Assembly (NCBI GenBank): GCA_905479925.1
Contig: CAJQOL010000013.1
Span: forward strand, 62,001 to 126,000
DNA length: 64,000 nt
Origin: an uncultured Kangiellaceae bacterium
GTDB lineage: Bacteria > Pseudomonadota > Gammaproteobacteria > Enterobacterales > Kangiellaceae
Direction of reading: 5' to 3'
Notes under the pieces: generated by a model
Database searches by the model: none
Seen by the model: the letters and a program-made list of their open reading frames with translations, nothing else
What the model was told of the DNA's origin: nothing
Position numbers and translations under genes: made by a program
Part shown: piece after piece, positions 3,756 to 14,838 of the stretch
How the letters are laid out: the number at the start of each line of letters is the position of its first letter
Position numbering within the stretch: position 1 is the first letter of the stretch

Positions 3756-6700
3756 TCATTCCTTAGTATCTTGTGAAGCGCTTTTAGCTCTAGATCGCCT
3801 TTGAGCATTGGGCTTGGTAAGCTTTTCGATTGTCTTCAACTTGTCGCTAATTTCCGTCATTTTTTCATGAGTTCCCAAATCCAAATCCAACTTGCCACCC
3901 ATTAATTTAATTAAAGGATACAGCGTTTTTTCAAGAACTTTCGCCAATTCTTTACCAACATTAACATCACCATTATCCGCTTCGGCTAGTGTTGTAGACG
4001 ATTTTATCGAGGACCCTAACTGGTTAATCGCTTCGACAATTGCTCGGCTACTTTTCTCGTCAGATTGATGCTCATTAGTGACACTGGCATTTTTATCTGC
4101 CGATTCGATTTTGCGCGCGCTATCTGCATCCTGCCGCCAACGCTCTATACCGGTTACTAGGTCATTTAACTGCAAAACGATTTTCTGTTGCGCGTCAGCG
4201 TCATCACCACCCATAGATTTATTACGGACAAAGTCACTCTTAATTTTTTCCCAACGAGTTGAATCTTGTTCATCCATTTTCTCGCGAAGTTCAGCCAGTT
4301 TCAGTAGGTTGGCTTCAGTTCCACTTGTCAGCAACTGGGACTCACCCAAATAGTGGTCATCGATAATCCTATCAATTTCTTCATCGGTCATAATTGCGGA
4401 TATCTTTTCGCACATCTTATTCATATTTCTATAGGAGCCTTGCAACTTGAAAGCAGGCTCGGTTCTATAGTTATCATCTTGAGCGCTTGCAGCGATATAG
4501 GCTTTATTTACTCTCCAAACCACTTTCTGAATAGCCTTCATTTTTTGTAGAACAGAAACGATTTCTTTTATTTCTGCGCCGCCGTATTGATGAGAAAAGT
4601 CCGTGGTTGCCACATTTTTACCATTAGCCATATCAATAAATTTATAAACATCGCTCATCTCCCGTGTAGCTAATGGGGCTAGAATTGGATTTGAGGTTAG
4701 GGAGTTTTCAATATAGCTCAACTCAAAGACGTCTTCTTTTCCGCCGAGTACGTCACCCAAGTTGTAAATGTCAGCTCGATTGGCAAGCATGTCAGGAATT
4801 TGAAACGCCTCTCCGGTTTCCGTGTAAGGATTTCCGGCCATCACTACGGCAAATTTCTTTCCTCGCATATCGTAGGTTTTAGCCTTGTTCTGCCAAACAC
4901 CTTCAATCCGTCTAGTTCCATCACAGAGAGAAATAAACTTCTGTAAGAATTCACTATTGGTATGCTGAATATCATCTAGATAGAGCATGACATTGTTGCC
5001 CATTTCTAGAGCAAGATTTAGTTTTTCAAGCTCTTGGCGAGCCGCACTATTATCAGCTTGCTCGGGATCAACCGAGGTAACATTATGACCAATTACAGGA
5101 CAATTAATTTTCATAAAAATCAAACCCAAACGGTCTGCGACATACTCCATAAGAGTCGTCTTTCCGTAACCGGGTGGTGAGATCATCAACAGAAGCCCCA
5201 TTAAATCCGTTCGCTTCTTATCGCCGACGGTTCCAATTTGTTTTGCTAGATTGTCACCAATAAACGAAAGGTAAACTTCGTTAATTAGCTTATTTCTGAC
5301 AAAGGAAGACAGTGGCTTTGCCTTAAATTCATCAAGCCTCAAAAGCTCTCTTTGGTCAACAATGGTCGAGGTCCGCAGTTCATGATAAAGCTTATACTTT
5401 GGCAACATAATTTTTTCGTGATGTAGATTTCGTTCAATAAAGTCATCGAGCTGAATCATCAATCGACGTTCTTCTATTCTCTCGTGGGTACCGAGCAGCT
5501 TATCGATAGTCATTTGAATATCGACTTGTTTATCTGTACGGTCAATTCGTTGCTCGGCATTGAGGATACCAACCGCCTCACCAACGAAATTTTTCAGCTC
5601 AGACTTGGCTTGGGATTCCACATACGCATTTAACCAAGCTTCCGTAATCTGCCAGCGCTTACCTACAACACCGGAAATGTCTTTTAATACCTTAAGATAA
5701 TCATTCCATATATTGTTAGTTTTTAGGTGAGCAATAAAATCATTGCAAAGTAGTCTCGCGTACTTACTCGTCGCAAAACTAACCCTGTCTTGGGATAATT
5801 CCTCTACAAGGTATTGACTCGTACTAGCGATAAGATGTGGCTCGAACTCTAAGCCTTGCTGGTCAATAAAATCACTCACTTGTTTTTGAATATCGTTACT
5901 TAGGAGTTTTTTTTCTGTAGCGTTAGAAAATAATTTTTGCATCGAGTCAGCGGTTTTAGCCCTTTGCGGCCAAAGCATTTGCTGTTTTCCGGTTTGGCAG
6001 TTAGCCCAATATATACAACCAAGACCTCGAGCAAGCGGTGAGTACTTGAAAACTCCAGCGGTCTCATAAACCGGGACAAGTTGGTTCAAAATACGCGCCG
6101 TATCACGGTCATGAATACCTTTCTCATATCCCTCTTTAAAACGAGGGGACGCGTATTCACTCACCAAATTTGTCAACTTATCCAGATCGGCACAGGTAGA
6201 TGATAGAACCGACCAAGTAAGTCCCTCGGCGGCGCGTTCAGCTGCAAGCAAAATATTGTAAGCAAGGTATTCCGCTCGATATAACAACTCGGTCTCAGAA
6301 GGGACTGTCATGGCCCAACAATCTGATAACTCTTCAAGCTTTTTATCGGCTAAGGGTTCGAAGTAGTCGGTTCCCGTCAGCTTAATATAAAGCTCGTTAT
6401 CTTTCGGTAATATGGTTATATCTAAATCTTGTTTGTTTACTGCAAACTTATGTCTCGGTCCAAGTTTAATAACCTGGCCACCTTCTTCATAAAGGTCATT
6501 TTTGTCCCTTAACGAGCGAATTGCTTGTTGCTTTGCCGCTTTTAATTGAGAGTCTAAATCCTCCGCTTTTACACTATCATCATAGTGATGGAGTTGTTCG
6601 ATGATTTCACGAATCTTAACGACGAGACCGTCAGCCGCAAAAAATGCATTTAACTCATCCGGCTCCGAAAATCGCTTTGTGCGACGTTGGACGCTTTGTA

Positions 6701-9044
6701 ATATTCGCTCTCCAGAAGTGGCCAAAGACTGAGCCTTTCGTTGACGTTGCTCCACCAATCCTTGTTTATGTTCCTCAAAGGTCTCAAAAATCTCTTCTCT
6801 CTTAGCGAGGATGTCAGTCACAAAATCATCAAAGTCGCTGAACTCTCCTTCTAACTCTTCAAGTTGAATAAGCAGTCTAGCCGATTGCTGGTCACATTTT
6901 TCCGGTGTACTAGATAAGTTTAAAGCGTTATGAATACTTTGGTTAAGTAACTTTAATCGAGCGCCAAACTGTGCCGTTGCTTCGGCGCTTCCCATGTTTT
7001 TTCTTAAGTGTTCGAGCTCGGCTTTTTGTTGATTGAGCTTGCCGTATAATTCAGATACTGAATCGACGATACGAGTCTGTACCGTCGCATCATCGACTTT
7101 CAGTGTCGCCATTAATTCCGAAATTAAATCTAACCCTTCTGCGAGTGCTTCGACCTTCTCTAAGTGAGGTTGAAGTTCAGCATTAGACTTTGATTTTTCG
7201 GCATCTTTTGTCGCGGTTTCTAAGGTCTTATAGTAGCTGGCTAAGGCATCCTCCGAAGACAAAAACTCAACCGTTTGTTCTGACAAAGATTGTTCAACCG
7301 ATTCAATTTCTTGATCTAACTCTTCAATAACGGCGATATCAATATAACGATATTCCTTTATCGTCATTAGATGGCCTCGATAACCCCGTATCGAACTCAG
7401 ACCGTCAACAAACTCTTGTGGACTGTGCCAGCTTTGAGGCTCAATACTGCGCACTAACTCCTTGAGTGTTGCTTCAGCATCATTAAGGGCAATATCGGAC
7501 TGCTTTCGAATACTTTCGACTTTTTCATATTCATCAATAACCGATTCGGCTGTCTCGCCAATTTGCCTGATCAAGCTCGATATACTTGCCAACTCTTCAG
7601 AATCTAGCCAGAAATAAGTATCAAAAATCTTTTCACATTGACGTCCAAGCTCATTGTAGTGAGCCGCGGAAACGTCCTCTGCAGCTATCGACTTTGCAAT
7701 CCCATAGAGATCAGAAATACCTCTAACGAGTTCCGCATTGCCAATTTTTCCATAGAAGCTTTGGGAGGTGGGTTGGTTGCTCGCAAACACATCGGAAAAG
7801 TAAGGTGTTTGCCAAATTTGAATTGGATGCACTCGATTAGGCTCATCTTCCGCGTAGAAAATGATCATTTTTCCATCTTCGTAAATACCATAGCCATGAC
7901 CAAATTGCGGATTTTGCAGGGTTCGATTAATCAGGTTGTACGCATACAGGGCAATCACATTAGTTTCAGGCTGATAGAAAACATACATCACGTCTTCACC
8001 ATTAGGCGAACGAAGTGTTCTCTTATAAACTAAACCGCTTATGTTATCGTCAAATCGTTTGTGTTCACCATTAGTTAGATAGTAACCCCCTGGAAAGATA
8101 ATACCGTGATCTTCAGGTAAAGAAATACAGGCATCACCAATCTCATCAATTCTTAAAATCGACTGACTACTCTTATTAAAAACTAGGTAACGAAAGTTTT
8201 CTTCTTGGTAGGGTTTAATCTTGAGCAATATCATTTGCCCTAAGTCGCAAAAATGGAACTCCGCATCATCTAAAGATTGATTTCCGTCTTCAACGGCTTC
8301 AGAGTAAATACCTAGCCCGCTATTTGTATTGTCTTCGACTTTTATCGTAATGTCGCCGCGCGAGCAATCGACAAATAATGTATCTAAAATGTTTATATGT
8401 GGATTTCTACCATCGACAACATCGTCTCTGCTACAGGTAGTCCATACAAAATCCTGACTTGCCGGTAATTGAATATCCCTTTCGCCACGATTATCGATAT
8501 AATCAAGCTGCTTGCCATCACTCGATATCTGCCACCGGAAAACTCGAATGTCAGATAGTTTTTGTCCAATACTAAATGCCGCTAACAAACGTCCGTTTTT
8601 GACCACCAACTGAGATAGAGATGCATCCTTATAATAGGTATAAAGCTCGTTGAACTCCTCTTGAAAACGGGAATCCGCTAGAAATGAATTATCGATAGGA
8701 ATTCGTTTTAGATCATACTGTCCATCGTTATCTGAAAGCTGATACAGTGACAAAACATCTTCGATTTTTGTCTCTTTTTTTAGCCCGATAAATACATTAT
8801 AACCAAACAGAACTTTGTCATTAACAATGACCAAATCTTTCGCTTGGCAGTTATTTTCAGTTCGAAGCCGCATTCGACCAAGAACCTTCATTTCGGTCGT
8901 ACCAAACTCGCTCTGACGTTCGCTATTTATCTTACTAATGAGTCCATCGATGTTTCGCCCTTGCTCAGAAAGACGTTGACGAATGACGTCATAGGCTCCG
9001 CCTTCAGTAACGGCCTGTTCAACAATTGAAGTCTTCTCAACCAC
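3756..9044 (-). CDS. Giant (1762 aa) 'DNA repair ATPase'-type protein (DUF3686-like N-terminus, C-terminal AAA ATPase)
   Basis: Walker A PPGYGKTTL, Walker B NVMLYLDDIQ, MAGNPYTETGEAF sensor-like segment; long beta-rich N-terminus and central coiled coils. Confidence 0.85.
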   Translation of the reverse strand: MVEKTSIVEQAVTEGGAYDVIRQRLSEQGRNIDGLISKINSERQSEFGTTEMKVLGRMRLRTENNCQAKDLVIVNDKVLFGYNVFIGLKKETKIEDVLSLYQLSDNDGQYDLKRIPIDNSFLADSRFQEEFNELYTYYKDASLSQLVVKNGRLLAAFSIGQKLSDIRVFRWQISSDGKQLDYIDNRGERDIQLPASQDFVWTTCSRDDVVDGRNPHINILDTLFVDCSRGDITIKVEDNTNSGLGIYSEAVEDGNQSLDDAEFHFCDLGQMILLKIKPYQEENFRYLVFNKSSQSILRIDEIGDACISLPEDHGIIFPGGYYLTNGEHKRFDDNISGLVYKRTLRSPNGEDVMYVFYQPETNVIALYAYNLINRTLQNPQFGHGYGIYEDGKMIIFYAEDEPNRVHPIQIWQTPYFSDVFASNQPTSQSFYGKIGNAELVRGISDLYGIAKSIAAEDVSAAHYNELGRQCEKIFDTYFWLDSEELASISSLIRQIGETAESVIDEYEKVESIRKQSDIALNDAEATLKELVRSIEPQSWHSPQEFVDGLSSIRGYRGHLMTIKEYRYIDIAVIEELDQEIESVEQSLSEQTVEFLSSEDALASYYKTLETATKDAEKSKSNAELQPHLEKVEALAEGLDLISELMATLKVDDATVQTRIVDSVSELYGKLNQQKAELEHLRKNMGSAEATAQFGARLKLLNQSIHNALNLSSTPEKCDQQSARLLIQLEELEGEFSDFDDFVTDILAKREEIFETFEEHKQGLVEQRQRKAQSLATSGERILQSVQRRTKRFSEPDELNAFFAADGLVVKIREIIEQLHHYDDSVKAEDLDSQLKAAKQQAIRSLRDKNDLYEEGGQVIKLGPRHKFAVNKQDLDITILPKDNELYIKLTGTDYFEPLADKKLEELSDCWAMTVPSETELLYRAEYLAYNILLAAERAAEGLTWSVLSSTCADLDKLTNLVSEYASPRFKEGYEKGIHDRDTARILNQLVPVYETAGVFKYSPLARGLGCIYWANCQTGKQQMLWPQRAKTADSMQKLFSNATEKKLLSNDIQKQVSDFIDQQGLEFEPHLIASTSQYLVEELSQDRVSFATSKYARLLCNDFIAHLKTNNIWNDYLKVLKDISGVVGKRWQITEAWLNAYVESQAKSELKNFVGEAVGILNAEQRIDRTDKQVDIQMTIDKLLGTHERIEERRLMIQLDDFIERNLHHEKIMLPKYKLYHELRTSTIVDQRELLRLDEFKAKPLSSFVRNKLINEVYLSFIGDNLAKQIGTVGDKKRTDLMGLLLMISPPGYGKTTLMEYVADRLGLIFMKINCPVIGHNVTSVDPEQADNSAARQELEKLNLALEMGNNVMLYLDDIQHTNSEFLQKFISLCDGTRRIEGVWQNKAKTYDMRGKKFAVVMAGNPYTETGEAFQIPDMLANRADIYNLGDVLGGKEDVFELSYIENSLTSNPILAPLATREMSDVYKFIDMANGKNVATTDFSHQYGGAEIKEIVSVLQKMKAIQKVVWRVNKAYIAASAQDDNYRTEPAFKLQGSYRNMNKMCEKISAIMTDEEIDRIIDDHYLGESQLLTSGTEANLLKLAELREKMDEQDSTRWEKIKSDFVRNKSMGGDDADAQQKIVLQLNDLVTGIERWRQDADSARKIESADKNASVTNEHQSDEKSSRAIVEAINQLGSSIKSSTTLAEADNGDVNVGKELAKVLEKTLYPLIKLMGGKLDLDLGTHEKMTEISDKLKTIEKLTKPNAQRRSRAKSASQDTKE

Positions 9045-9226: not shown

Positions 9227-11215
9227 TTAACTATCAAGAGAGTTTTCGTTTTTGACGCTTTTAGAGGATTGATCCAGCTGAGGGACGTTTGCACCACCAA
9301 GTAGCTTTTCCATTAACGCTTGGATGATTGGGCTCTTTTCAATAAATCCATTAACCGCATTTCCGGCGCCCATTCCTTTAGCTAACTTATCAAAGTAGTC
9401 GCCCTGACCACCAACAATATCGATATTTGCGTTCTTAAGCGCTGATGCAAGAACGGATGCTTGGTCGCTAGAAATCTCTTTGTTAGCGTCAATCGAAGCT
9501 AATACTTCTTTCAATTGGTACTCAAGATTCAGTCTAAACTCTTCAAACTCTCTTGAAGCGGTATCCATGTTGTTCATCGCAGCAAATTTCTCTACCAACG
9601 CGTCAGCTTCAGCTTTACCTTTTTCTCGAACAACATCCGCCGAACTGATACCAATTTCCTTAGTTGCAACCGCTTCGGCTTTACCAAGTTCCTCGTTTCC
9701 TCGCGCTTCAGCTGTTAGCTTTTCTTCCAACACATTCGCTTCTGCAACACCTTCTTTCTGTAACGAAGCAGCCTTGGCTTCTTGAACTCTAGCTTGTGCA
9801 AAACCTTCTTTCTCAAAGGCATCAGCTTTCGCTTCCATAACATGCGCTTCAGCCAAACCACTAGCAGCCTGAGTTGCCTGATTTCCTTCGGCCAGTTTCT
9901 TGTCTGATTCTGCACGTTTAGCAGACGCTTCTAATTCAGCTTGCGCAATCAAATTGATTTCACGAGATTTATGAACCGCTTTTTGTTCTTCCGCTTCCGC
10001 CTGCTTAACCATTTGAACAAGGCTTTCCTGTGCAGTTGCTTCCGCCGCCAGAATTTTCACTTGCTTCGAACGATCGGCTTCTGAAACTTCCTGAACTTCT
10101 TTAATACGCTCTTCTTCTTCAGCGACTTTTTTCTCGACCGCAATCCTTTCACTAATAGTCTGAGAAATTATTTTCTTTTGCTCCTCAAGCGCCTTGTCTT
10201 TATCGATAACGGAAAGCTCTACTTCTCTTTCACGATTAACCGATTCCATTTGTTGAGCTCTAATAACTCGCTCTTTCTCAATGACAACAGCCTTTTCTCT
10301 GTTTTGCTCAGCAACTTCAATCTGACGCATCTTGACTTGCTCTCTGATCGCTAGCTGCTCATTAGTTTCAATTGCGGCTTGCTCGGCCTTGAGCCTTTCT
10401 TCCTCTTGCACTTTCTGTGTCTCTGCTTGCTCCCTTGCTCTTACTGTTTCAACTTCACGTTTTTGTTTTGACTCTGCATCGATTTGTTGACGTTCAAGGG
10501 CAAGCATCGATTCGCGCGTTTCTACATTCTTTTTGGTAATAGCCAGCTCTTCGTCTTTTTCTAATCGATTTGTTTCAACATTTTGGGTAGCGGTAATTTC
10601 AGTGATTTTCTTGATGCCTTGAGAGTCAAGTATATTGGTAGGATCAAGTTTAGCTTTTGGTGTTTGTTCTAAATAATCAATCGCTACATCTTCAAGAACG
10701 TAACCATTCATATCGTCGCCAATAACTTCGATTATTTTTTCGCGGAATTGAATTCTATTTTCAAATAAGTCCAAGAACATCATGTTCTTACCTACTGTTT
10801 TTAATGCTTCTGAGAATTTAGCATTAAAGAGTTCATTAACGGCTTCTTTATCTGAGGCACGATCTACGCCTATCGATTTTGCAACCCTAAGGACATCGTC
10901 TCTTGTTTCATTTACTCTGAGATAAAATGCAACGGTAATATCCGCTCTAAGGTTATCCTTACAGATCAATCCGTCATTCGCGCGACGGTCGATTTCTAAG
11001 GTTATCAGCGATATCTTCATAACCTCCATTTTATGAATAACCGGTAGCACCATACCACCGGTAAAATGAACCTTCGGTTTGGACGACATATCGTTTACGA
11101 TTAACGCATAACCTTGAGGTACTTTTTTATAAAATGCGCTGAACATAAAGGCTAGCGCAAATATTCCCATGAGAATAAATCCGCCGTAGGTTAAGATTGG
11201 CATTAAAGTTTCCAT
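9227..11215 (-). CDS. Flotillin / YqiK-type SPFH-domain protein
   Basis: N-terminal TM, SPFH-like region (KVPQGYALIVNDMSSKPKVHFTGGMVLPVIHKMEVM), long A/E/K/Q-rich flotillin coiled coil. Confidence 0.9.
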   Translation of the reverse strand: METLMPILTYGGFILMGIFALAFMFSAFYKKVPQGYALIVNDMSSKPKVHFTGGMVLPVIHKMEVMKISLITLEIDRRANDGLICKDNLRADITVAFYLRVNETRDDVLRVAKSIGVDRASDKEAVNELFNAKFSEALKTVGKNMMFLDLFENRIQFREKIIEVIGDDMNGYVLEDVAIDYLEQTPKAKLDPTNILDSQGIKKITEITATQNVETNRLEKDEELAITKKNVETRESMLALERQQIDAESKQKREVETVRAREQAETQKVQEEERLKAEQAAIETNEQLAIREQVKMRQIEVAEQNREKAVVIEKERVIRAQQMESVNREREVELSVIDKDKALEEQKKIISQTISERIAVEKKVAEEEERIKEVQEVSEADRSKQVKILAAEATAQESLVQMVKQAEAEEQKAVHKSREINLIAQAELEASAKRAESDKKLAEGNQATQAASGLAEAHVMEAKADAFEKEGFAQARVQEAKAASLQKEGVAEANVLEEKLTAEARGNEELGKAEAVATKEIGISSADVVREKGKAEADALVEKFAAMNNMDTASREFEEFRLNLEYQLKEVLASIDANKEISSDQASVLASALKNANIDIVGGQGDYFDKLAKGMGAGNAVNGFIEKSPIIQALMEKLLGGANVPQLDQSSKSVKNENSLDS

Positions 11216-11313: not shown

Positions 11314-11976
11314 TTATTCGCTTTTATTTTGCCTACGAAACTCTTCTTCAGTTACAACTAAGTAACTATCGTCGCTTTCATTGTGTTCTATAATAAATGC
11401 ATTATCGCCCTTGCTTAAGGTCAAATCGCCATGTGTCCGTACCTTGATAATTAGACTTGCGCCGTAATGGCTGCAGTCGGCCTCACCGAAACCACTATCT
11501 GCTCTGCTGGTTCTAATTCGGCAACCGGTACCCAACAATGAACGCCGTAACGGCTCTTGATGAATTCTTTTAAAAAGCCCCTTTAATGGCCGTATCATAG
11601 TTGCTGTTATAGGTATTGCCGCTAGCAAGCTACATACTGCGATTGCGACGTTTATGGCGAACTGCAGTATAGAAATAATGTCGGGAAAGGTTGGCATATA
11701 AATAGTCGCAAAGTAACAAACAAACCAACTATTTAACACGATAAGACTGATCACCACTGATATCGGTACACCAGTAAGCCCAAGCGTCGTTAACAGACCT
11801 GCTATGCCTCCTACTTGCGAGACATCAACATCAATTTCCAGGTCGACTCCAATGTCAAATGCATCGATGTCGAAAAGGCCAATAAGAGTAAGGAGCCAAA
11901 AACCTGAAACTACTACCAAGCCCGTAGAAAAAATGGCGGTAGGAAAAGAGCTTACATTGAGTAAGAATGCGTCCAT
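11314..11976 (-). CDS. YqiJ/NfeD-like OB-fold membrane protein
   Basis: Three or more TM segments, C-terminal beta-rich domain (LLGTGCRIRTSRADSGFGEADC); next to flotillin as in yqiJ-yqiK. Confidence 0.75.
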   Translation of the reverse strand: MDAFLLNVSSFPTAIFSTGLVVVSGFWLLTLIGLFDIDAFDIGVDLEIDVDVSQVGGIAGLLTTLGLTGVPISVVISLIVLNSWFVCYFATIYMPTFPDIISILQFAINVAIAVCSLLAAIPITATMIRPLKGLFKRIHQEPLRRSLLGTGCRIRTSRADSGFGEADCSHYGASLIIKVRTHGDLTLSKGDNAFIIEHNESDDSYLVVTEEEFRRQNKSE

Positions 11977-12142: not shown

Positions 12143-12478
12143 CTATTCTTCTTTGTTCATGACAAAATCGATGATTTCCTTTGCCGCTTTTTCTTTTATA
12201 GATAATTTGTCGACAACATCTAGCTCGTAGTGCTTAGCAAGAATCTGATAGTCGTCTTCTGTCAGCGAAATGGTCAATCGCGGCCTCACTGGCTTTTTGC
12301 TCGGCAGGCCCAAAATCTTTCTCATTTGGTCTGATGGTGACAAATCGTTTTGGATAGCTGTCATCTTCAAACGTTTTTGGGCTTCGGTCGAAATATCAAA
12401 AGCAACTTGGGTAGCCCTAATCGCCTTTTTTTCGTTTTGCCAACGTTGTGGCTGTTTTGCTTTCATGGAAGAACTCAA
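12143..12478 (-). CDS. Small protein with two candidate ribbon-helix-helix-like repeats
   Basis: VAFDISTEAQKRLKMTAIQNDLSPSDQMRKIL and LTISLTEDDYQILAKHYELDVVDKLSIKEKAAKEII both read as beta-helix-helix. Confidence 0.55.
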   Translation of the reverse strand: MSSSMKAKQPQRWQNEKKAIRATQVAFDISTEAQKRLKMTAIQNDLSPSDQMRKILGLPSKKPVRPRLTISLTEDDYQILAKHYELDVVDKLSIKEKAAKEIIDFVMNKEE

Positions 12479-12554
12479 TGATTTAATTCACAAAATGCTG
12501 GTAACTGACAAAGCTCTTTTTGAGGCGCTAATGATACTAGCGCCTCAGAAAAAC

Positions 12555-13238
12555 CTATTTTTTCTTCAATCTAGCTAATACGCTTTCAGCGGAGTGTTTG
12601 TCCTTAATAATTCCAGAAGCTTTAAGCTTCCCATCAAGATCATCGCCTTCAAGTTCCTTTTTAAGTTCCATACCAGCTTCCAGTCGATCTTGCTCACTTT
12701 GCTGTTTTTGTTTAATCCTTTCAAGGGATTCACGCGCTGATCCAATTGCTGAGTCGTTATTGGTGACCGTTTGTGTCACCGACTTAGTCGCCTGTTGAAC
12801 CGATTCTCGAGTTTTGACCATAGCCAACTCTCTTTCGTGCTCGGCAATAATTTTTTCAGCTTCTTGAATTTGTGACTTTAGAATCTCAACATTTTTCTCG
12901 TAGTTGGCTAACTCCTCAGCCTGCGACTCGGCTTTAGCTTCCAGCTTAGCAATTTTCTCCGCCACTTCTAGCGCTAAGCTTTCATTGTCTTGTCCTAACG
13001 CTTCAACCGCATACCCCTCATTTTCAGATATTTCTGATTTGACTGAATCTAGACGCCTCTCTGCAGCCATCTTTTTAGCAACGATTTCAGTCAAACCGCT
13101 TTTAGCTTCCGCCAAATTTTCTTTAGATTCATGGATTTCCTGTTCAAAAATACGTAACGACTGTGTATCAACCACTGCCTCACCTATTTCCCTTGCGCTG
13201 CCTCTAATTGCGGTTAATAATTTAGTGATAATATTCAT
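12555..13238 (-). CDS. PspA/IM30 family protein
   Basis: Long alpha-helical protein, IITKLLTAIRGSAREIGEAVVDTQSLRIFEQEIHESKENL... Confidence 0.85.
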   Translation of the reverse strand: MNIITKLLTAIRGSAREIGEAVVDTQSLRIFEQEIHESKENLAEAKSGLTEIVAKKMAAERRLDSVKSEISENEGYAVEALGQDNESLALEVAEKIAKLEAKAESQAEELANYEKNVEILKSQIQEAEKIIAEHERELAMVKTRESVQQATKSVTQTVTNNDSAIGSARESLERIKQKQQSEQDRLEAGMELKKELEGDDLDGKLKASGIIKDKHSAESVLARLKKK

Positions 13239-13284: not shown

Positions 13285-13692
13285 CTATTTAATAAACTCT
13301 TCTAATGCCTGTAAGCTATCAATTGAATTCTGTGCCAGGGTCACTAGTTCATCGGAAATACTTTCTAACGTCGAACCTCGGGATAGAGCGCCAAAAATAA
13401 CGTAATAATCCTCTATAACAGCAAAAGCGCTTAACGGCATTGGCACATTTAGTTCCAAAAGATACTGATTCATTTGATTCTCTTTATCGGTATGAATTTC
13501 ATCTTTACGAAATAGATAAGATATACAGAGTATTTGAGTATCTGTAACAGTTATGAATATCGGCATTTCTTCCAATTGCGAAACTTCTACTCTTAGAACA
13601 TCTTGCTCGCCTTGAATCCTCAAACAGCTAAAGGTATGTCCTTTAAACTGAAAGCCAGTAATTTGATTAGTAAGTTGTTGAATTGATGTCAC
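13285..13692 (-). CDS. DUF2170 / YjfI-like protein
   Basis: Start re-assigned to GTG at 13692 with SD GGAGAGG; the ORF-track ATG at 13761 lies upstream of the predicted -10 element. Confidence 0.7.
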   Translation of the reverse strand: MTSIQQLTNQITGFQFKGHTFSCLRIQGEQDVLRVEVSQLEEMPIFITVTDTQILCISYLFRKDEIHTDKENQMNQYLLELNVPMPLSAFAVIEDYYVIFGALSRGSTLESISDELVTLAQNSIDSLQALEEFIK

Positions 13693-13730: not shown

Positions 13731-13743
13731 GACATAATATGTC
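13731..13743. promoter_or_regulatory. Operator-like site 2, GACATAATATGTC
   Basis: Near-palindrome; exact reverse complement of site 13762-13774; lies around the predicted transcription start. Confidence 0.65.
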
Positions 13744-13747
13744 ATAC

Positions 13748-13776
13748 AGAATATCAATCACGACATATTATGTCAA
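13748..13776 (-). promoter_or_regulatory. Sigma70-type promoter of the YjfI-PspA-flotillin-ATPase operon
   Basis: TTGACA (13776-13771) - 17 nt - TATTCT (13753-13748). Confidence 0.75.
13762..13774. promoter_or_regulatory. Operator-like site 1, GACATATTATGTC
   Basis: Overlaps the -35 hexamer; inverted copy of 13731-13743. Confidence 0.65.
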
Positions 13777-13929: not shown

Positions 13930-14838
13930 ATGAAAACAATCAAACAGCTCGGTATTTTATTATCGTGCTTAAGTCTATCTTTATTAGCTACGGCGGAGGA
14001 GGCTAAAAAGCCTGAATTAGGTTTCGCAACGACCGAGGTTGCCCCTGGTATCTATATGCTCTCTGGCGTAGGTGGTTTCACAGGCGGTAACATAGGTTTG
14101 TCAATTGGTGATGACGGCGTTGTTATGATTGACGACTCTATGCCACCACTCTTGGACAAAATGAAAGCCGCGGTCAAAAGCATAACAAATAAGCCGGTTG
14201 ATTTTCTCATTAATACTCACGTACATGGTGACCATACGGGTAACAATAAGAGCATGGGCGAAGATGGCACACGCATTGTTGCCCATGATAACTTACGTAT
14301 CAATATGTTAGTAAAAGGACTACAAACGGCGGAAGGCAAAAAGCCAATGCCCAAAGCAGCTCTTCCGGTTATTACCTTTTCTCATGCGATGAGTTTTCAC
14401 CTTAATGGTGAAGATGCTCGTATTTTTCATGTTGCTAACGCGCATACCGATGGCGATGCGGTAATCCATTATAAAAATGCCAACGTTATTCATACTGGAG
14501 ATACTTTTTTCAATGGTATGTTTCCCTACATCGACATTAATAACGGCGGAAACGTAGATGGTTATATAGCGGCTCAAGCTAAAATGATTAGTGTCGCAAA
14601 TGCTGATACGAAAATTATTCCGGGACACGGACCACTATCAAACGTTGCTGAACTTAAAACCTCGCTGGCTATGTTAAAAGATAGCAGAGCGATAATTGCT
14701 AAACTTATTAAACAAGGCAAAACAGAGCAGCAAGTTATCGATGAAAACCCTTTGCAGAAATATCATAAAGATTGGAATTGGGGATTTATTACCACTGAAA
14801 AAATGACCCGGCAAGTCTACAAAAGCCTTAAGCAGTAA
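13930..14838 (+). CDS. Secreted metallo-beta-lactamase-fold hydrolase
   Basis: ATG at 13930 with ggagaag upstream and a signal peptide; HVHGDHTGNN, HTGDTFF, IPGHGP motifs. Confidence 0.88.
   Translation: MKTIKQLGILLSCLSLSLLATAEEAKKPELGFATTEVAPGIYMLSGVGGFTGGNIGLSIGDDGVVMIDDSMPPLLDKMKAAVKSITNKPVDFLINTHVHGDHTGNNKSMGEDGTRIVAHDNLRINMLVKGLQTAEGKKPMPKAALPVITFSHAMSFHLNGEDARIFHVANAHTDGDAVIHYKNANVIHTGDTFFNGMFPYIDINNGGNVDGYIAAQAKMISVANADTKIIPGHGPLSNVAELKTSLAMLKDSRAIIAKLIKQGKTEQQVIDENPLQKYHKDWNWGFITTEKMTRQVYKSLKQ

Follow-up and report, generated by a model that had tools for sequence, protein, structure and literature searches.

Paired palindromes at a sigma70-type promoter as probable operators of a ribbon-helix-helix repressor encoded in a yjfI-pspA operon

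The two palindromes that flank the promoter of a yjfI-pspA operon in an uncultured Kangiellaceae bacterium are, judging from comparative sequence data, very probably bound by a small repressor of ribbon-helix-helix (RHH) type that is encoded in the same operon. The window referred to throughout is the whole 64,000-nucleotide stretch of DNA that was analysed.

The promoter, its palindromes and the operon behind it

On the minus strand, direct reading gives TTGACA (13776-13771), a spacer of 17 nucleotides and TATTCT (13753-13748), the consensus promoter that the sequence-only reading had reported, and this arrangement is the top promoter match (10/12) in a scan of 3.0-14.2 kb of the window. On the plus strand, GACATAATATGTC lies at 13731-13743 and GACATATTATGTC at 13762-13774, so that, as had also been described, one 13-bp site falls over the -35 and the other around the inferred +1, with centres 31 bp apart. 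Both share the pattern GACATA-N-TATGTC (GACATANTATGTC) on the minus strand. The two sites had been called mutually inverted, and they are indeed reverse complements of each other, but this adds nothing because each 13-mer alone already forms a perfect, odd-centred palindrome. An exact GACATANTATGTC is expected by chance 0.0026 times per 64 kb, the promoter pair is the sole identical 6-1-6 palindrome pair separated by 80 bp or less in the window, and such a pair was found in none of 300 simulated windows. A scan of the 4.49-Mb genome, which the earlier reading had proposed as a check, returned two exact copies of the 13-mer, both at the yjfI promoter, and no copy of a reversed control pattern. 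The features concerned, all on the minus strand, are as follows.

13771-13776, minus strand: -35 hexamer TTGACA, inside the conserved TTGACATNNNATGTC
13762-13774, minus strand: predicted operator 1, GACATA-A-TATGTC, overlapping the -35; conserved in orthologous upstream regions
13748-13753, minus strand: -10 hexamer TATTCT, spacer 17; relatives keep a TA-NNN-T at spacer 16-18
13731-13743, minus strand: predicted operator 2, GACATA-T-TATGTC, spanning the inferred +1 at about 13741; a second copy is conserved in relatives
13285-13692, minus strand: yjfI, DUF2170 (CesT/Tir-like), operon gene 1 (Pfam PF09938, E=1.5e-36; start codon inferred)
12555-13238, minus strand: pspA, PspA_IM30, of YjfJ/BacB type (Pfam PF04012, E=1.3e-35)
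12143-12466, minus strand: proposed repressor, a tandem RHH protein of 107-111 aa (AlphaFold fold and co-occurrence with the operator)
11314-11976, minus strand: YqiJ-like membrane protein (synteny with yqiJ of relatives; named after Ravi et al. 2024)
9227-11215, minus strand: YqiK/flotillin-like protein (tblastn conservation of 47-67% in related operons; position and Ravi et al. 2024)
3756-9044, minus strand: AAA+ ATPase, DUF3686 (Pfam PF12458, E=9.6e-188)

The gene order is thus yjfI (DUF2170), pspA, the gene of a 111-aa protein, yqiJ, yqiK and the AAA ATPase gene. The listed start of the yjfI reading frame, GTG at 13761, would overlap an operator, and the GTG at 13692 behind GGAGAGG is the likelier start. 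Scored against the classical PspA equivalog model TIGR02977, the operon's PspA reaches 15.2 bits at a cut-off of 242.95 and is not a classical equivalog, and a Pfam search of the YqiJ-like and YqiK/flotillin-like proteins gave no match for either. Between pspA and the RHH gene lies a strong hairpin of 14 pairs (12517-12551), with no T run following the stem on the coding (minus) strand, which may serve in processing or attenuation and not as a terminator. The divergent gene (13933-14838) encodes a metallo-beta-lactamase-fold hydrolase nearest to the quinoprotein-relay zinc metallohydrolases, with scores below the family cut-offs.

The site and the RHH gene across genomes

Conservation upstream of yjfI was followed in the genomes of the order and in 80 named loci of a second collection, which covers Kangiellaceae, Thalassotalea, Colwellia, Shewanella and Oceanimonas together with Betaproteobacteria that include Massilia, Denitromonas and Chitinimonas. 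The yjfI upstream regions of the order's RHH-positive genomes carry the palindrome, mostly paired, and among the 80 named loci at least one exact copy of GACATNNNATGTC lies in the scanned stretch of 72 of the 76 that bear yjfI. With one mismatch or none, GACATNNNATGTC is found upstream of yjfI in every RHH-positive locus examined that has upstream DNA present, in Gamma- and Betaproteobacteria alike. Over both sets, four loci lack even a one-mismatch site, two of them contig-edge cases and two being copies of one genome in which the site lies just beyond the scanned stretch. This phylogenetic footprinting, likewise proposed beforehand, therefore finds the motif conserved wherever the operon also has the RHH gene. 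The promoter is retained with it: the operator contains a TTGACA -35 in 112 of 118 distinct upstream regions, and a -10 of the form TA-NNN-T mostly follows 16-18 nt beyond it, with a sharp peak at spacers 16 and 17 (48 each). The spacing of about three helical turns to which the sequence-only reading had drawn attention does not hold up among relatives, in most of which the operators stand 28-39 bp apart (mode 36), and in six loci, most of them from Betaproteobacteria, 15 bp apart; this variability rules out helical phasing of the two operators. Where yqiK and yjfI operons are divergent (L192, L193, L195 and L241), their common intergenic region holds two operator pairs, one per promoter.

The distribution of the site follows that of the RHH gene. 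In a survey of 198 genomes of the order, the RHH gene is present in 65, all of which have yjfI, and the exact operator pair occurs in 43 of these 65 vs 1 of the 133 genomes that lack the gene (p=7e-26, with shared ancestry ignored). The split persists when only genomes with yjfI are compared (43/65 vs 1/23; p=2e-7, shared ancestry again ignored), and so the site goes with the RHH gene rather than with yjfI. The lone RHH-negative genome with an exact pair (G111) is a draft, 88% complete and in 600 contigs; with it set aside, exact single sites number 250 in the 65 RHH-positive genomes (3.85 per genome) vs 12 in the remaining 132 (0.09 per genome), where they are isolated and occur one or two at a time in 11 genomes. 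The site or a variant confined to one family is present in all 65 RHH-positive genomes. Exact sites are missing from 11 of these, every one a member of that family (f11, e.g. L070 and L086), where the variant GACATTWAATGTC stands at the yjfI promoter in 12/12 genomes; 11 of the 12 have a single copy and one has two, with one copy at yjfI. Inspection by eye of an alignment of the RHH proteins offered no matching change in DNA-contact residues, with nothing obvious in the predicted contact strands. In other orders the pair was found in three of six RHH-positive genomes and in none of 221 RHH-negative ones (p=1e-5, shared ancestry ignored). In one genome (G023) the RHH gene is unlinked, standing beside a potassium-channel-like gene, and the pair lies directly before pspA on another contig (L062/L117), an arrangement that would represent action of the RHH protein on the site in trans.

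A 13-bp palindrome is the usual target of many dimeric factors, and the sites could in principle serve a different, unlinked factor, perhaps from another helix-turn-helix family, with the RHH protein a mere passenger of the operon. We regard this as improbable, although more plausible than the other alternatives considered below, in that the site tracks the RHH gene within and beyond the order, also where that gene and pspA are not linked, and an unlinked factor would need to have the same distribution.

In many relatives, such as Shewanella and Thalassotalea-type and Colwellia-like bacteria, the site looks as if it defines a membrane-integrity regulon, as far as can be read from the genes behind it, whose names come in part from selected Pfam/NCBIfam scans, the rest having been read off the sequences. 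RHH-positive genomes of families f6, f7, f12 and f16 mostly have 4-10 exact sites. All six Shewanella-group genomes examined have extra sites before htpX and before nfeD-SPFH, five of the six have one in the operon lipoprotein/glnE-like intergenic region, and further sites precede AIM24 and genes for small membrane proteins. In f7, sites lie before a second pspA whose product passes the TIGR02977 cut-off (four genomes), and also before nfeD-SPFH, a single SPFH gene, yqiJ and nhaA; this second pspA is also retained by five f7 genomes that lack the RHH gene, and the exact site is nowhere in them. Sites near htpX recur in f12, f15 and f25. A coherent regulon fits these data because yqiJ and SPFH genes, unlinked in some lineages, belong to one operon in the window. 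For the window's own genome such a regulon was rejected, since there is no exact site beyond the promoter pair; six one-mismatch sites occur, of which the three examined do not resemble regulon promoters, and two-mismatch matches (121 vs 99 for the control) show little excess.

The candidate regulator and a proposed mechanism

The 111-aa protein encoded by the third gene is predicted to be a tandem RHH protein. An AlphaFold model built on a 60-sequence alignment (mean pLDDT 77) has two strand-helix-helix units in one chain, the first with a strand at 19-21 and helices at 27-39 and 44-52, the second with a strand at 66-68 and helices at 70-80 and 87-103. The model contains no strands besides these two short ones, which for this reason presumably pair with each other. 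The RHH_10 Pfam match is sub-threshold (14.3 bits, cut-off 27), a PDB sequence search returned no relative, and Foldseek gave no match at E<0.001; its top matches, all with E>0.1, include F-plasmid relaxosome chains, which we take to be TraY, a permuted single-chain Arc and AvtR. The predicted strand-helix-helix resembles that of Arc/MetJ/TraY-type regulators, with tandem units as in TraY and single-chain Arc, but the operator and targets differ, and no solved member matches it significantly in sequence or structure. In RHH transcription factors it is the strand of this unit that enters the DNA major groove, and proteins of this fold typically repress their own genes from palindromic operators. 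The window's own genome also encodes a diverged RHH-like paralog of 39% identity (L091; G000:C9, match at 380-634 of the contig), with no operator within the 10 kb examined around it. In some genomes (L061, L062) a potassium-channel-like gene adjoins the RHH gene, which recalls the channel in one of the pspA operon classes that appear in the excerpts of Ravi et al. (2024) used here.

The model that we consider highly probable, on the strength of these sequence patterns, is that the palindromes are operators of the RHH protein, which would act as autorepressor of the sigma70 promoter and, in relatives, as the hub of a membrane-integrity regulon. The RHH protein made from gene 3 would bind both 13-bp palindromes at the promoter of its own operon, covering the -35 via operator 1 and the start site via operator 2, and this occlusion would repress the whole yjfI-pspA-RHH-yqiJ-yqiK-AAA operon, the RHH gene included, until a membrane-stress signal releases the repressor and the operon is turned on. 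Direct binding, repression, autoregulation and the stress signal are what we infer, and the simplest account is autoregulation by occlusion of the -35 and the start site. The repressor control that the sequence-only reading had suspected is strongly supported, for a sigma70 promoter, the motif being conserved together with the RHH gene, with TTGACA inside the operator and a -10 following. That reading had put no name to the regulator, and had missed both the palindromy of each site and the several operons that the site would join in relatives. The orthologous RHH protein of Shewanella, Thalassotalea-type, Colwellia-like and related genomes would use the same site at further promoters, and the proposed regulon would comprise the yjfI-pspA operon, nfeD-SPFH, htpX, the second, classical-type pspA, yqiJ, nhaA, AIM24 and the lipoprotein gene. 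A bolder and rather doubtful extension, argued by analogy, is that the RHH protein is a dedicated master repressor of a so far undescribed membrane-repair regulon joining ESCRT-III-like PspA, SPFH/flotillin-NfeD, HtpX, AIM24 and ion homeostasis, and that PspA or YjfI of the same operon would report membrane damage to this repressor by sequestering or releasing it, in parallel with PspA and PspF in the classical system.

Several regulon promoters have one site only, and this leaves some room for an RHH protein that binds but activates, or that both activates and represses. Such a role seems unlikely, since a protein bound to the yjfI operators, on the -35 and the inferred +1, would exclude RNA polymerase, and since a promoter with a consensus -35 and a 10/12 match needs no activator. 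That YjfI or PspA is itself the DNA-binding regulator is very unlikely: the excerpts of PMC10948618 used here consider a regulatory role for the DUF2170 protein BacA, and YjfJ was formerly presumed to be a transcription factor (PMC12492005), but in the 23 genomes with yjfI and no RHH gene the pair is absent save from one incomplete draft, which disfavours regulation by YjfI. Finally, a near-consensus sigma70 promoter alone would drive the operon, but palindromes placed over it by chance and devoid of a regulatory role can be discounted in view of the 0.0026 sites expected per window, the conservation in dozens of gamma- and betaproteobacterial loci and the recurrence of the regulon.

Relation to known psp-type systems and significance

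Both the operon type and the occurrence of an RHH gene in some of its representatives are already known. The excerpts of Ravi et al. (2024; PMC11237479) used here describe yjfI(CesT/Tir)-pspA operons in which a DUF2170-PspA core is joined by band-7/flotillin, YqiJ and AAA+ ATPase genes, and the window's operon matches the gene content of this flotillin/AAA type, with flotillin and YqiJ assigned by synteny. The same excerpts name an RHH transcription factor gene as the last gene of some spermidine-synthase-type operons, not of the flotillin/AAA type seen in the window, and in them no operator, promoter architecture or regulon is described. The P. aeruginosa bac operon (bacA, DUF2170; bacB, PspA-like) is homologous in its first two genes, but the excerpts of PMC10948618 propose for it a sigma54 site at -12/-24 and report no RHH operator. 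A literature search for the 13-mer returned one unrelated plant paper only, and the literature searched yielded no description of the operator, of how it is fused to the promoter and inherited together with the RHH gene, or of the regulon. A Shewanella regulon reconstruction reports 23 cluster regulons (PMC3223726), and searches of its main text turned up no pspA, PspF or htpX; a prior prediction in its supplements is possible.

The classical E. coli pspF/pspABC system resembles the present proposal in pairing a PspA-family membrane-stress protein with stress-type control, but it relies on sigma54 and the activator PspF, whereas the window's operon has a sigma70-type promoter and proposed RHH repressor operators. 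This contrast, also drawn by the sequence-only reading, holds at the yjfI operon, but the genome as a whole also keeps a separate classical pspF-pspA pair. No pspF adjoins the yjfI operon on its contig (C13), and the sole above-cut-off PspF match in the genome is on contig C18; two further PspA proteins exceed the TIGR02977 cut-off (G000:C18:8808-11125 and C36:35263-35919), the one on C18 beside pspF. Because this classical pair is also present, the yjfI operon would constitute a second, parallel psp-type circuit.

With the site standing before a whole set of membrane-protection genes in many related marine bacteria, the system has the look of a membrane-stress control circuit that has not been described before. 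If true, it adds a repressor-controlled, sigma70-dependent circuit to the several known that control PspA-family proteins, one that would be conserved across Gamma- and Betaproteobacteria and would coexist with PspF in the window's genome. The regulon would link the membrane proteins PspA/ESCRT-III-like, SPFH/NfeD, HtpX and AIM24, bearing on how these act together, and it offers a specific site and gene that can be tested in genetically tractable Shewanella.
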